Shown here: piece after piece, positions 562 through 6,067 of the stretch | Layout: each line of letters starts with the position of its first letter | Position numbering within the stretch: the first letter of the stretch is position 1 | Assembly: GCF_023256195.1 (NCBI RefSeq) | Contig: NZ_JAGDWX010000004.1 | Location: forward strand, 1 to 42,010 | Direction: 5' to 3' | Length of the DNA: 42,010 nt | Source: Acidithiobacillus sp. | GTDB taxonomy: Bacteria > Pseudomonadota > Gammaproteobacteria > Acidithiobacillales > Acidithiobacillaceae | The notes under the pieces: generated by a model | Databases searched by the model: none | What the model was told of the DNA's origin: nothing | The model's input: the letters and a program-made list of their open reading frames with translations, nothing else | Position numbers and translations under genes: made by a program

Positions 562-2184
562 ATGACGCAGCACAGTTTGGTGGACCTTGCCGTCTGGCAG
601 GATTTGCGGGGACAGGCGGCGGCGTGGCACGGTCGCCATCTCAAGGATCTCTTCCGCGAAGATCCGCAGCGCGCAGAGCGCTATGGGGTCGAGGCCTGCG
701 GGCTGTACTTCGATTTTTCCAAGAACTGGCTGGATGATAGAGTCCTGGCCGGCCTTCTGAAGCTTGCCGAGGAGCGCGGCGTCACCGCGCGGCGCGATGC
801 CATGTTCGCCGGGGAGCACATCAACGCGACCGAGGATCGGGCAGTGATGCATGTGGCCCTGCGCATGCCGCCTTCGGCGCGGTGCGTGGTGGACGGCAAG
901 GACGTGGTCCCCGAGGTGCAGGCGGTGCTGCAGCGGATGGCGGACTTCAGTACCCGAGTGCGGGAGGGACGCTGGCTTGGCGCCAGCGGCAAGCGGATCC
1001 GGACGGTCATCAATATCGGTATCGGCGGTTCGTACCTGGGTCCGGAAATGGCCTACCATGCCCTGCGCCGTTTTTGCCACCCGCAGATCGGTCTGCGCTT
1101 CGTCGCCAATGTGGATGCAGCGGCGCTGGAGCGGGCCGTTGCCGATCTCGATCCGGCGGAAACCCTCTTCGTCGTCGCTTCCAAGACCTTCACGACCCTG
1201 GAGACCATGACCAACGCTCGGGCAGCTCGGGAGTGGCTGGTCCGCGCCCTGGGTGAGGCAGCCGTGGCCCAGCACTTCGTCGCGGTATCCACCAACACCG
1301 AGGCAGTGCGGGCCTTTGGCATGGACACCGAGCACATGTTCGGCTTCTGGGATTGGGTAGGTGGACGGTATTCCATGGATTCGGCCATCGGTCTGTCCAC
1401 CATGATCGCAGTAGGTGCCGAGGCCTTCACGGAGATGCTTGCCGGCTTCCACGCCATGGACGAGCACTTCCGCAGCGCGCCGCTGCGGCAGAATCTGCCG
1501 GTGCTGCATGGCCTCATCTCCCTCTGGTACAACGATTTCTTCGGTGCCCAGAGCCAGGCCGTGCTTCCCTACGCCCAAGATCTCAGCCGTTTTCCCGCCT
1601 ACCTGCAGCAGTTGCAGATGGAGAGCAATGGTAAGTCCGTAGATATGCACGGCCGAGCCCTGCCGGTGGACAGCGGCATGGTCATCTGGGGAGAGCCCGG
1701 GACCGATGGCCAGCATTCCTTTTACCAGTTGCTGCACCAGGGTACGCGTCTCATTCCCTGCGACCTGATCGGCTTTGTGGAACCACTGGCCGATTCCGCC
1801 GCGCAGCACGATCTGCTCATGGCCAATCTTATCGCTCAGGCCGAGGCTCTGGCCTTTGGTAAGACGGCCGAGGAGTTGCGGCAGGAGGGCGCGCCCGACG
1901 CACAAATACCCTTTCGCGTCTGTCCGGGGAACCGCCCCAGCAACGTCCTCTTGCTGGATGCGCTGACGCCCTACAGTCTGGGGGTGCTGGTGGCCTTCTA
2001 CGAGCACAGCGTGTTCACTCAGGGCGCCATCTGGGATATCGACTCCTTCGACCAGTGGGGCGTGGAGCTCGGCAAGGTGCTGGCGCTGCGAATCCTGGAC
2101 GATATCCAGGGCAAGGCGCAGCACCCGCACGACAGTTCCACCCGACAACTCCTCGCCCGTTACCGAGCGGCACGCCGGAACTAG
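562..2184 (+). CDS. pgi: Glucose-6-phosphate isomerase
   Basis: Interconverts glucose 6-phosphate and fructose 6-phosphate in the cytoplasm (glycolysis, gluconeogenesis, polysaccharide precursors). At 540 residues it is the usual length. Family signatures are intact: [19 protein letters not shown] near 152-170, the [17 protein letters not shown] block, QMESNGKS with catalytic Glu354, [12 protein letters not shown] with His385, and the C-terminal [11 protein letters not shown] with Lys505. The ATG has a purine-rich ribosome site (AGGAAGAGG) just upstream. The gene stands alone: it is followed by a tandem repeat and hairpin before the next gene. A 656-residue open frame on the opposite strand is a codon-bias shadow. 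Confidence 0.97.
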
Positions 2185-2372: not shown

Positions 2373-3533
2373 ATGAAGCCATCCTTGCCCGTTTTGGGCC
2401 TTGCCACGCTTTTTTCCGCACAGATCGCCCTGGGGGGCGTGCCGCCCCTGCCCAGCCCACCACCGCCACCACCCATGCCTGCTCCGCAGATTTCGGGGGT
2501 GCAGGCGGCGGTGCTGTTGGATGTGCAGACCGATCAGGTGCTCATGGACGAGCACGGCGACCGGCCCCTCAACCCCTCGGGGCTGGTGAAGCTGATGACG
2601 GCCTATCTGCTCTTGCAGGCCGAGCACCAAGGCCTGGTGCGGCCGGAGCAGTCTGTGCAGGTGTCCGATCGCGCCTGGCACGCCCAGGGCTCAAGGATGT
2701 TCATCCAGCCAGGTCTGCCCGTCACCGTGGCACAATTGGAGCGGGGCCTGCTCATCGACGGTGGCAACGACGCCGCCATTGCGATCGCTCAGGTTGTGGC
2801 GGGCAGCATCTCGGGTTTCGTGGATCTCATGAACCGCGACGCCGCCGAAATGGGCCTGAAGCAGACCCATTTTGCCAATCCGGACGGTCTGCCCGCCCCC
2901 GATCAACGCAGTACCGCCCTGGACATGGCGCGTCTGGCGCGGATCCTGATCGAGCATTATCCTTCGGTGCTACAGGTGGCGGGGCAGCCCAAGTACACCT
3001 ACAACCACATCACCCAGTACAACTATAACCCTCTGGCCGGGGAGAAAGGCATCAATGGCCTGGGGGTAGGGCTTGCGGCCACCAATCACTGGGATCTCGC
3101 CGTGAGCGCCAACCGTGACGGCCGGACACTGGTGGCCGTGATTCTGGGCGCGGCCTCCCGCAGTGCCGCTGGCAGCGATGCCAGTGCCATGCTGCACTAC
3201 GGCTTTCACGGCTGGCGGGTACACACCGTTTACGCAGCCGGGGCGCAAGTGGGGGAGATACGCCACCTGACCTGGAGCCCCGAAACCCTCGAGGTGACGA
3301 CGCCCAAGGCCGTAGAGGTAGCCGTGCCGCAAGGTGGGATGGGCAAACTGAGCAGCCAGTTCGTGCCGAGCCCGGGGCTGGTCCTGCCCATCCATGCCAA
3401 GGAGGTGGTGGGCCAGCTGGAACTGCGTTGGCAGGGGCGCTTGCTGAAAACGGTACCCGTGCAGGCAGCCCGATCCGTGCACGCCGCCGGCCTGGTCACT
3501 CGGCTCTGGCATCGTGTCCGGGCTTGGCTGTGA
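2373..3533 (+). CDS. PBP5-family D-Ala-D-Ala carboxypeptidase homologue lacking all catalytic motifs
   Basis: Homologous to DacA/DacC (PBP5/6), periplasmic enzymes that trim peptidoglycan pentapeptides. I chose the ATG at 2373 because it begins a signal peptide (MKPSLPVLGLATLFSAQIALG); the frame is open upstream with further starts at 2301 and 2358. Numbered from 2301, the SxxK site reads G94-L-V-K97 (serine replaced by glycine), the SxN site reads G154-G-N156, and the KTG site reads G255-V-G257. The flanking blocks align well (GSRMFIQPG, DLMNRDAAEMGLKQTHFANPDGL, STALDMARLARILI), and the beta-rich domain II and C-terminal amphipathic helix (RLWHRVRAWL) of PBP5 are present. It is therefore a full-length family member that should be unable to acylate. 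It lies 56 bases before the PBP1A gene on the same strand, probably co-transcribed. A proline run (PPLPSPPPPPPMP) follows the signal peptide. Structural or regulatory function is inference. Confidence 0.85.
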   Translation: MKPSLPVLGLATLFSAQIALGGVPPLPSPPPPPPMPAPQISGVQAAVLLDVQTDQVLMDEHGDRPLNPSGLVKLMTAYLLLQAEHQGLVRPEQSVQVSDRAWHAQGSRMFIQPGLPVTVAQLERGLLIDGGNDAAIAIAQVVAGSISGFVDLMNRDAAEMGLKQTHFANPDGLPAPDQRSTALDMARLARILIEHYPSVLQVAGQPKYTYNHITQYNYNPLAGEKGINGLGVGLAATNHWDLAVSANRDGRTLVAVILGAASRSAAGSDASAMLHYGFHGWRVHTVYAAGAQVGEIRHLTWSPETLEVTTPKAVEVAVPQGGMGKLSSQFVPSPGLVLPIHAKEVVGQLELRWQGRLLKTVPVQAARSVHAAGLVTRLWHRVRAWL

Positions 3534-3589: not shown

Positions 3590-6067
3590 ATGCACCCGCG
3601 CTTGCGCAGACTGCGGCCGTGGCTGCTGTGGGGCCTGCTCTCCATCGTCCCTTTGTTCCTCTTGGTCTTGGCGGGATTGGGTGTGTGGACCTACCGCCTG
3701 TGGGAGAGTCTGCCTGCCGTGCATCAGTTGGAGGACTGGCATCCGCAGGAACCGCTACGCATCTATGCCGACAATGGTCAGCTACTGCAGGTCATCGGTC
3801 CGCAGTTGCGTTATGCCCTGCCTTTGCAGAAGATCCCCCGCCACCTGCAAGAGGCTTTCATCGCCGCTGAAGATGCCAGTTTCTACAGCCACAACCCCCT
3901 CTATTACCCCGTCAGTTTTCCGGGAATTGCGCGCGCTGCCTGGGTCGATCTCACGCATCTGGCACCGGTGCAGGGAGCCAGTACCATCCCGGAGCAAGTG
4001 GCCCGGGATTTTTACCTGAGTCCGAAGAAGACGGTGACGCGCAAGGTCGCACAGATCCTGCTGGCCTATAAGCTGGCGGCGCACCTCGGTCGACAGCAGA
4101 TTCTGGATCTCTATCTGAACAAGATCTACCTTGGTGAAGGCGCCTATGGCGTGCAGGCGGCGGCCAGGACCTACTATGGCAAATCGGTGGACCAGCTGAC
4201 GCTGGCTGAGATGGCAACCTTGGCGGGCCTGCCGGCAGCGCCCTCGGCCTTCAATCCCATTGCCTCGCCCGCGGCCGCCAAAGCGCGCCGCGATTACGTC
4301 CTGCGCCGTATGGCCCGGCTTGGCTTCATCAGCCCAGCCCAGGCGCAGGCCGCCACCGCCATGCCCATCCGTGCCCGCTATCATGCTCCCGCGAGCAATG
4401 TCGCTCCCTATGCCACCGATTGGATCCGTCACTGGCTGGAGTCCCATTTCGGTGCCGATTTTACCTACCGCAGCGGCCTGCGCGTCTACACCAGTATCGA
4501 TCCGGCGGATCAGCGTGCCGCCGACCGCGACCTGGCGATCGGGCTGGAGAACTACGCCATGGGGCTGGACAGCATGGATCCCAAGGCTTGGCATGGCCCC
4601 ATCGCCCAGCTGCACGGGGCGGCACTGACGGCGGCGCTGCACGGTCAGCGGCCGTCCCTGCTGCCAGAGCACGATCCCGCCAATCTCCGCTGGGCGGTGG
4701 TGGTGAGGGCCTCAGCCCGGGGTGCGGAGCTCTCTCTGCAGGGACGACGACCCGTGCACCTGACGCTGCGCGATGTGCGTTGGGTGCGATTGCCTCCCGG
4801 CGGTCAGGCGCCGCAGGCCGTGGATCAGGTCCTGCAACGGGGCGATCTGGTCTGGCTGCGCCGCTATGTGGCCGCAGCCACGGCGGGTACAGGCAATCCG
4901 GTCTGGGGCAGCAAGGTCTGGCATCCGGTACCCCACGGCGGCTGGCAGCTGACTCAGATTCCGCACGTACAGGGCGCGCTGGTGTCCCTCGATAGCCACA
5001 GTGGGGGCATCCTTGCCCTGGTGGGCGGCTTCAGCTACGAACTGAGTCACTTCGATCGCGCTCTCTATGCCTACCGACAGCCGGGCTCGGGCTTCAAGCC
5101 CTTTGTCTATGCCTCGGCCATAGACGCACCGAGTCTGTTGGCCAGCGGTCACAAGGGCTACTATACGCCGGTATCGCTCATTGCCGACACCCCGCTCATC
5201 ATCCATCTTGCGGACGGGCAGATCTACGCGCCCACCAACTATAGCCGGACCTTTTCCAAGACGCCTTTCCCCATCTGGGAGGACTTGGCGGATTCCCACA
5301 ATGTGCCCAGCGTCCGGTTGCTCATGGATGTCGGCATACCTTATGCGCGCGCCTATGTGGAGCGCTTTGGTATTCCGGCCAGGCAGATTCCCGCCAGCCC
5401 ATCCATGGTCCTGGGTTCCGGCGACTTCACGCCCTTGCAGATCGCGCGGGGCTACGCGGTTTTCTCCAGCGGTGGCTTCCTGCCCCATCCCTACCTGATC
5501 CGCAAGATCCTGACGCGCAACGGTACGCAGGTCTCTCTGCTGGACTGTCCCCTGGGTTACCGGCCGCCATCCAAAGAGACGGTCATCCCGCCCGGCGTGG
5601 CCTATCTGCTCACCCGCATGATGGAGCGAGTGATCCGCGAGGGCACCGGTGTGGCCGCGCAGATCCTGCATCGTCACGATCTGGCCGGCAAGACGGGCAC
5701 CACCAACCACGAGGACAATGCCTGGTTCAATGGCTACAACCCGGACATCACGACCTCCGTCTGGGTGGGCTACGACGACAACCACAGCATGGGGACCTGG
5801 GCGGCTGGCGCGCGCGAGGCGCTGCCCATCTGGATCCGCTACATGCACACCGCACTTGCGCCCTATCCGGACATCGGCTTCTTCCAGCCGCCGGACGTGG
5901 TGACGGCCCGCTACGATCCCAAGACCGGTACCTTGGTGTCGGCGAAGGATCCCCAGCGTGGCAGCAAGATCGGCTACTTTCTGGCGGGTTACCTGCCGCC
6001 CTCGGCCAAGGCCCAGCGGCGGTCGGAGCTGCGCAGCTTCATCCACGCTTTGATGCACATCTTCTAG
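3590..6067 (+). CDS. mrcA: Class A penicillin-binding protein (PBP1A-like), variant GT51 site
   Basis: Bifunctional peptidoglycan synthase homologue of 825 residues with an N-terminal membrane anchor (about 13-36), a GT51 glycosyltransferase domain (about 60-250), a linker/OB-like region and a transpeptidase domain (about 460-760). The transpeptidase triad is complete: S500-G-F-K503, S569-H-N571, K701-T-G703-T-T. In GT51, E94-D95, F98 and H101 are kept, and motif 2 reads QGASTIPEQVARD (128-140) instead of the usual GGSTxTQQxxKN. The second catalytic acid in RKxxE is replaced: RKVAQ, Gln155. Alignment from there through ILDLYLNKIYLG is ungapped, so the change looks real. Polymerase activity is therefore doubtful while cross-linking should be normal. 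The ATG is preceded by GGGGGAGGG at 9 bases. Confidence 0.92.
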   Translation: MHPRLRRLRPWLLWGLLSIVPLFLLVLAGLGVWTYRLWESLPAVHQLEDWHPQEPLRIYADNGQLLQVIGPQLRYALPLQKIPRHLQEAFIAAEDASFYSHNPLYYPVSFPGIARAAWVDLTHLAPVQGASTIPEQVARDFYLSPKKTVTRKVAQILLAYKLAAHLGRQQILDLYLNKIYLGEGAYGVQAAARTYYGKSVDQLTLAEMATLAGLPAAPSAFNPIASPAAAKARRDYVLRRMARLGFISPAQAQAATAMPIRARYHAPASNVAPYATDWIRHWLESHFGADFTYRSGLRVYTSIDPADQRAADRDLAIGLENYAMGLDSMDPKAWHGPIAQLHGAALTAALHGQRPSLLPEHDPANLRWAVVVRASARGAELSLQGRRPVHLTLRDVRWVRLPPGGQAPQAVDQVLQRGDLVWLRRYVAAATAGTGNPVWGSKVWHPVPHGGWQLTQIPHVQGALVSLDSHSGGILALVGGFSYELSHFDRALYAYRQPGSGFKPFVYASAIDAPSLLASGHKGYYTPVSLIADTPLIIHLADGQIYAPTNYSRTFSKTPFPIWEDLADSHNVPSVRLLMDVGIPYARAYVERFGIPARQIPASPSMVLGSGDFTPLQIARGYAVFSSGGFLPHPYLIRKILTRNGTQVSLLDCPLGYRPPSKETVIPPGVAYLLTRMMERVIREGTGVAAQILHRHDLAGKTGTTNHEDNAWFNGYNPDITTSVWVGYDDNHSMGTWAAGAREALPIWIRYMHTALAPYPDIGFFQPPDVVTARYDPKTGTLVSAKDPQRGSKIGYFLAGYLPPSAKAQRRSELRSFIHALMHIF

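Follow-up and report, generated by a model that had tools for sequence, protein, structure and literature searches.

The Acidithiobacillaceae almost certainly carry an old duplicate of their PBP5-type DD-carboxypeptidase that lost its catalytic serines and the Lys of its KTG motif before the family diversified, and that has been kept in a non-catalytic form by purifying selection. The copy examined here lies at positions 2373..3533 of the window, by which we mean the whole 42,010-nucleotide stretch of Acidithiobacillus sp. DNA that was analysed (contig NZ_JAGDWX010000004.1), and encodes 386 amino acids with no internal stop; it and all other features given below are on the + strand. That the same replacement is shared and kept by selection suggests a non-enzymatic role in wall building for this protein, which we refer to as the dead PBP5.

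A full-length PBP5-family protein with three erased motifs

In a Pfam scan, residues 43-261 of the dead protein matched Peptidase_S11 (PF00768; 8.7e-53, 179.7 bits against a cut-off of 27.6) and residues 284-370 matched PBP5_C (PF07943; 7.3e-09, 36.1 bits against a cut-off of 21.2). The only other family in the scan was Beta-lactamase2, and no LytM (M23) domain was present. The protein fell below the NCBIfam equivalog cut-offs (PRK10793 DacA, PRK10001 and PRK11397 DacD), with a best score of 198.5 bits against 610. From the N- to the C-terminus, it consists of a signal peptide (judged by eye), a proline-rich linker (VPPLPSPPPPPPMPAPQ, 2439..2489), domain I, domain II (PBP5_C, 3222..3482), and a C-terminal helix (3492..3527; model helix 340-351, pLDDT 60-69, amphipathicity judged by eye only) that is the presumed membrane anchor. 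The linker stands out by composition: between 55 and 26 residues ahead of the first motif, the dead rows contain 7-12 prolines and the active rows 1-8, the truncated record L053 being omitted from the count.

Aligned by profile with E. coli PBP5 (6ntz) and P. aeruginosa PBP5 (4k91), the dead protein has GLVK, GGN and GVG opposite SLTK, SGN and KTG, respectively. At the erased SxxK motif (PSGLVKL, 2574..2594) residue 70 has changed from Ser to Gly and residue 72 from Thr to Val, while Lys73 is kept; at the erased SxN motif (GGN, 2760..2768) residue 130 has changed from Ser to Gly and Asn132 is kept; and at the erased KTG motif (GVG, 3063..3071) Lys231 and Thr232 have become Gly and Val. The block adjoining the third motif (3012..3032) is also remodelled, reading TQYNYNP versus TQRSWNP in the active paralogues. 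None of the SxxK, SxN and KTG motifs of an active DD-carboxypeptidase is found in any of the 27 orthologues described below. Judged by homology the protein is a member of the S11/PBP5 family, and judged by motif it is not a DD-carboxypeptidase; the replacements argue strongly that catalytic activity has been lost.

The residue ahead of the lost nucleophile is Ser in all 27 dead rows and Ala in all 40 active PBP5-type rows, resulting in PSGLVK. This Ala to Ser change (Ser69) is a nuance that an earlier, sequence-only reading of the same DNA had overlooked. Since Ser69 sets the dead rows apart from the active ones, and since Lys73 and Asn132 are kept in 27/27, one could imagine that the chemistry has been relocated, with the invariant Ser69 and Lys73, one helical turn away (SxxxK), making up a new active site. 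We regard this as very improbable, as the second serine and both the Lys and the Thr of KTG are gone and nothing evident takes over the remaining steps of the mechanism.

The replacements are fixed in Acidithiobacillaceae

An orthologue of the dead PBP5 was found in 27 of 29 Acidithiobacillaceae genomes, spread over each of the four genera that the search covered, the genus of the window being represented by two genomes. All 27 orthologue rows read GLVK/GGN/GVG, and all 51 other S11 rows fetched (47 paralogues from Acidithiobacillaceae and four outgroup sequences) read S..K / SGN / K[TS]G. Retention is equally strict: no orthologue lacks the GLVK Lys or the GGN Asn. At each of residues 70, 130 and 231 all four GGN codons for Gly were seen, and this synonymous variation indicates that the amino acid itself is held. 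Eleven sites are fixed both within the dead rows and within the active PBP5-type rows but with differing residues (46, 69, 70, 72, 130, 217, 231, 232, 235, 245 and 263, the last being Arg in the dead rows; not every row has a letter at site 46), and 115 of 342 alignment columns are invariant among the dead orthologues.

The dead rows are monophyletic (support 100/100), sitting on a long stem (1.26) beside dacL and dacH, the two active PBP5-type groups; as the tree is midpoint-rooted and long branches meet at the root, the exact sister of the dead clade is unsure. Considering pairs with dS between 0.1 and 1.5, the median pairwise dN/dS was 0.127 in the dead clade (range 0.049-0.341, 96 pairs), 0.087 in dacL (37 pairs), 0.072 in dacH (36 pairs) and 0.115 in the PBP7 type (7 pairs), and the value for the window copy against its congener was 0.064. 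The dead gene is constrained, slightly less so than its active PBP5-type paralogues.

Both family genomes without an orthologue are incomplete. The first, G019 (71% complete), also lacks pgi, the usual upstream neighbour of the dead gene, so the assembly may just not cover the locus. The other, G024 (61% complete; locus L155), has pgi next to a downstream antiporter with the dead gene missing between them, and the same antiporter follows the dead gene in G023; this looks like a real lineage-specific loss at the locus, in an incomplete genome. In addition, the frame is broken in 2/27 copies, G015 and G027 (matching the named records L053 and L057, both MAGs), for which mutation and assembly error are alike possible. 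Broken frames and a missing gene are points in favour of a decaying pseudogene or a sequencing artefact, but we give this explanation next to no credence: for the clade as a whole it is already refuted by the identical replacements in 27 orthologues, the low dN/dS and the invariance of a third of the columns, although loss may be under way in individual genomes.

The sequence-only reading had called the gene a full-length PBP5-family member, had aligned the three motif losses by eye and had seen in it a conserved pseudoenzyme, not a decaying gene. The S11 and PBP5_C domains, the predicted fold and the open 386-residue frame bear out the family assignment, and the motif losses are upheld by the profile alignment and by all 27 orthologues. 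The proposal of a conserved pseudoenzyme is strongly supported by monophyly, occurrence in four genera, glycines that are fixed at three sites while their codons vary synonymously, and low dN/dS. Nor is the window copy an isolated mutant among intact orthologues, all 27 of which share the replacements.

In the sister family, each of two genomes has one match to the dead protein, with motifs intact. A scan of genome contigs, whose reach is limited to close relatives, returned 21 loci, namely 19 dead orthologues and two intact relatives. A DNA search pattern with degenerate positions (Pro, then a residue whose codon has C or G in the middle, GLVKLM and AC), which is blind to any dead PBP5 with another motif, matched 2 of 369 genomes of the class, G000 and G020, the sole members of the family in that sample. 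In plasmids, a tblastn search picked up 192 records with a match, none reaching 60% identity; this is a count of matches only.

Predicted fold and conservation of the cleft

A structure model of the dead protein built with the 27 orthologues (pLDDT 85.4, pTM 0.83) had PBP5 and PBP6 structures as its best structural matches, superposing on P. aeruginosa PBP5 (4k91) with a Z score of 38.8 over 338 residues at 2.3 A and on E. coli PBP5 with a Z score of 36.9. By prediction, then, the dead protein keeps the PBP5 fold. Within the dead clade the mean modal fraction was highest around the former active site (0.95 in the SxN region, 0.90 at SxxK, 0.91 in the ITQYNYNP block and 0.82 at KTG) and lower in domain II (0.66), whose conservation is weaker than that of the motif regions. 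Conservation of the former active site implies that the cleft still matters, without telling its ligand, and a substrate-binding role would be compatible with it. Active dacL displays a like trend that is stronger at the motifs (0.99-1.00 and 0.94); with dacL more conserved at SxxK, SxN and KTG, the conservation of the cleft in the dead clade may in part be an inheritance from the enzyme ancestor.

The locus and the adjacent PBP1A

In the window, a class A PBP of the PBP1A type with intact transpeptidase motifs (3590..6067) lies 56 bases downstream of the dead gene. The upstream gene (562..2184) we take to be pgi, encoding glucose-6-phosphate isomerase, having recognised it from its sequence. 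Across the 27 dead-gene genomes, pgi is directly 5′ of the dead gene in 24; in G020 it is ~6 kb off, whereas the contigs of G007 and G014 stop short of it. PBP1A is directly 3′ in 20/27 (broken or incomplete in G026 and G027), and other genes follow in the remaining seven (G004, G005, G006, G008, G009, G015 and G023); were the neighbour ancestral, the tree would require ~4 independent losses. The promoter and terminator scan gave nothing beyond shuffled expectation.

This arrangement raises the question of whether the dead protein is a dedicated accessory factor of the adjacent PBP1A, that is, a lineage-specific counterpart of the LpoA-type activators, encoded in the same operon. The position of PBP1A directly downstream in 20/27 genomes speaks for it, as do the 56-base gap with no terminator-like site found between the two genes in the window, and the fact that G024, which has no dead gene at the locus, has as its sister in the dacL tree G023, which has no adjacent PBP1A. 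Evolutionary rates, compared over 24 of the 27 loci (L046, L054 and L057 omitted), point the same way: the median ratio of dead-gene to pgi pairwise dN was 1.34 with PBP1A (101 pairs) and 2.25 without it (19 pairs, the pairs being non-independent), and the branch-wise dead/pgi rate was 1.09 with PBP1A (28 branches), 1.45 without (10) and 1.37 on mixed branches (7). This somewhat faster evolution of the dead gene without its neighbour is suggestive at most: L049 is fast despite having PBP1A, and a dead-gene dN/dS of 0.149 was obtained whether the neighbour was there or not. Moreover, seven genomes keep the dead gene with other genes downstream, no PBP1A of the adjacent-copy type was found elsewhere in the single-contig genomes G004 and G008, and LpoA itself is generally present in the family. 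On balance we consider a dedicated PBP1A factor unlikely. Two related ideas were rejected. The adjacent PBP1A is not an obligatory partner, as it is missing from the locus in 7/27 dead-gene genomes and is the least constant companion of the dead gene (20/27); and the dead protein is not a stand-in for a lost LpoA, which was found in 18 of 20 family genomes (31 genomes searched), being absent only from G019 and G020. The earlier suggestion that the dead protein regulates the adjacent synthase is accordingly not established, given the seven loci at which other genes follow.

The PBP1A-type proteins of the family that we read (3590-6067, the second paralogue in L134, L136 and others) share a remodelled glycosyltransferase motif 1, usually AE[ND]xxFYSxNPxYYPV, with a four-residue insertion, and two sister-family proteins read EDAxFYEHxGV at this position. 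In the genus of the window, the PBP1A adjoining the dead gene (3590-6067, RKVAQ; also L102) has Gln in place of the Glu seen in the other PBP1A-type copies read, within the RKxxE motif.

Active paralogues in the same genomes

The genome of the window, in which the sequence-only reading had proposed a count of dac paralogues, contains four S11 genes, the dead one among them. The active PBP5 dacL occurs in all 27 genomes with the dead gene (22 copies fetched and read; those of G004, G005, G009, G011 and G013 assigned by match rank only, G011 being fragmentary), and so does a second PBP1A paralogue (14 read, 13 assigned via position and score). The second active PBP5 type, dacH, is present in just 16/27 (loci L082-L095 and others). 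Thus, dacL and the second PBP1A are more constant companions of the dead gene than the adjacent PBP1A, although any core gene would be constant too.

The constant presence of dacL would fit a pseudo-subunit that acts as the partner of dacL, much as Csd2 pairs with Csd1, and controls how active it is or where it sits. In living E. coli cells PBP5 and PBP6a associate with themselves, and PBP5 carrying the dead S44G substitution self-interacts as well, with higher FRET than the wild type and a changed conformation (PMC5596342); the Csd1-Csd2 heterodimer provides a case in which one partner has incomplete metal ligands (PMC5053510). We nevertheless doubt that dacL pairing is the explanation. Such co-occurrence is expected of core genes, and distance correlation over 12 genomes, which gave r of 0.885-0.933 for all six gene pairs, singled out no partner (dacL 0.895, pgi 0.893, second PBP1A 0.918). 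In E. coli, furthermore, S44G and active PBP5 localise independently of each other in cells that make both (PMC5596342).

Proposed role of the dead PBP5

We tentatively propose, as the likeliest reading but at slightly less than even odds, that the dead protein is a membrane-anchored, non-hydrolysing subunit that binds peptidoglycan or a partner and biases trimming versus cross-linking. After export, its C-terminal helix would tether it to the outer face of the inner membrane, such anchoring being likely. There it would work without hydrolysis, its PBP5 fold retained and its cleft remodelled yet still conserved, as a naturally occurring equivalent of PBP5 S44G, a mutant made in the laboratory. 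It might occupy the nascent stem peptide or, alternatively, pair with an active PBP5 paralogue or a class A PBP; either way, the balance of trimming and cross-linking would be biased during wall growth.

The S44G mutant is the closest guide. The single Ser44Gly change in E. coli PBP5 abolishes penicillin binding and carboxypeptidase activity (PMC2909392). In a dacA deletion strain it causes bulging, which the authors credit to the presence of the mutant protein, not to its inactivity (PMC5596342); by analogy, a dead PBP5 can influence wall growth. Two aspects of the mutant call for caution. First, both papers infer that S44G loses substrate affinity (PMC2909392, PMC5596342), and the mutant remains along the lateral wall without being drawn to midcell (PMC5596342), which by analogy argues against simple pentapeptide binding by the dead PBP5. 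Second, E. coli cells that contain active PBP5 as well as S44G have a normal appearance (PMC5596342), and the Acidithiobacillaceae always have active copies, so the effect of S44G may not carry over simply.

Binding and catalysis may nonetheless be separable. The PBP5 of E. faecium is a class B PBP. It binds peptidoglycan at the edge of the cleft and not in the active site (PMC12717099), so an erased centre need not erase binding. A more specific version of our proposal is possible but more doubtful: that the family possesses an undescribed class of dead PBP5, evolved once in Acidithiobacillaceae as a dedicated membrane-anchored subunit that senses peptidoglycan or protects stem peptides, and steers trimming versus cross-linking in the acid-exposed periplasm without catalysis.

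It has long been asked why bacteria maintain more than one low-mass PBP and whether such proteins do anything besides catalysis. Work with S44G in E. coli hinted at effects of a dead PBP5 in its own right, and the Acidithiobacillaceae are a lineage in which one is fixed beside active copies; with the dead PBP5 so maintained, a non-catalytic role is directly testable by deletion in Acidithiobacillus. The gene also carries a warning for annotation, as it passes the S11 domain cut-offs yet should be counted neither as a carboxypeptidase nor as a beta-lactam target.

Comparison with known systems

Our search of the open-access literature turned up no description of a dead PBP5 from nature, and this speaks only weakly for there being no published case. 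Among mycobacterial homologues aligned to E. coli DacA, all but MSMEG_6113 and Rv3627c keep the three motifs, the exceptions being linked to low similarity to DacA (PMC6435803). A work on extremophile carboxypeptidases presents the motifs as conserved, with no mention of Acidithiobacillus (PMC9953012), and DacC and MrcA are named in F. caldus vesicles in PMC10853474, where DacC could be either the dead protein or an active paralogue.

With E. coli PBP5, PBP6 and PBP6b and P. aeruginosa PBP5 the dead protein shares the fold, the two domains and the C-terminal helix, at 28-34% identity over ~300-340 residues. Unlike these S11 DD-carboxypeptidases, it has other residues in place of the two catalytic serines and of the Lys and Thr in KTG, and it differs from the family's own active paralogues at seven further group-specific sites (46, 69, 72, 217, 235, 245 and 263). 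It resembles PBP5 S44G in its Ser to Gly replacement at the nucleophile, the presence of S44G having effects of its own. However, S44G is a single, made change that is harmful in a dacA deletion, whereas the dead PBP5 is natural, has three motifs replaced and is kept beside active copies.

A second parallel lies in proteins that are related to peptidoglycan hydrolases but catalytically empty, and that work through partners. The degenerate LytM factors EnvC and NlpD are of this kind, and so is the Csd1-Csd2 pair. The dead PBP5 is likewise related to peptidoglycan hydrolases and, by its motifs, catalytically empty. Those systems have a metallopeptidase fold and known partners, whereas the dead PBP5 has the S11 serine fold. 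By analogy, the dead PBP5 may work like the dead LytM regulators without belonging to them.
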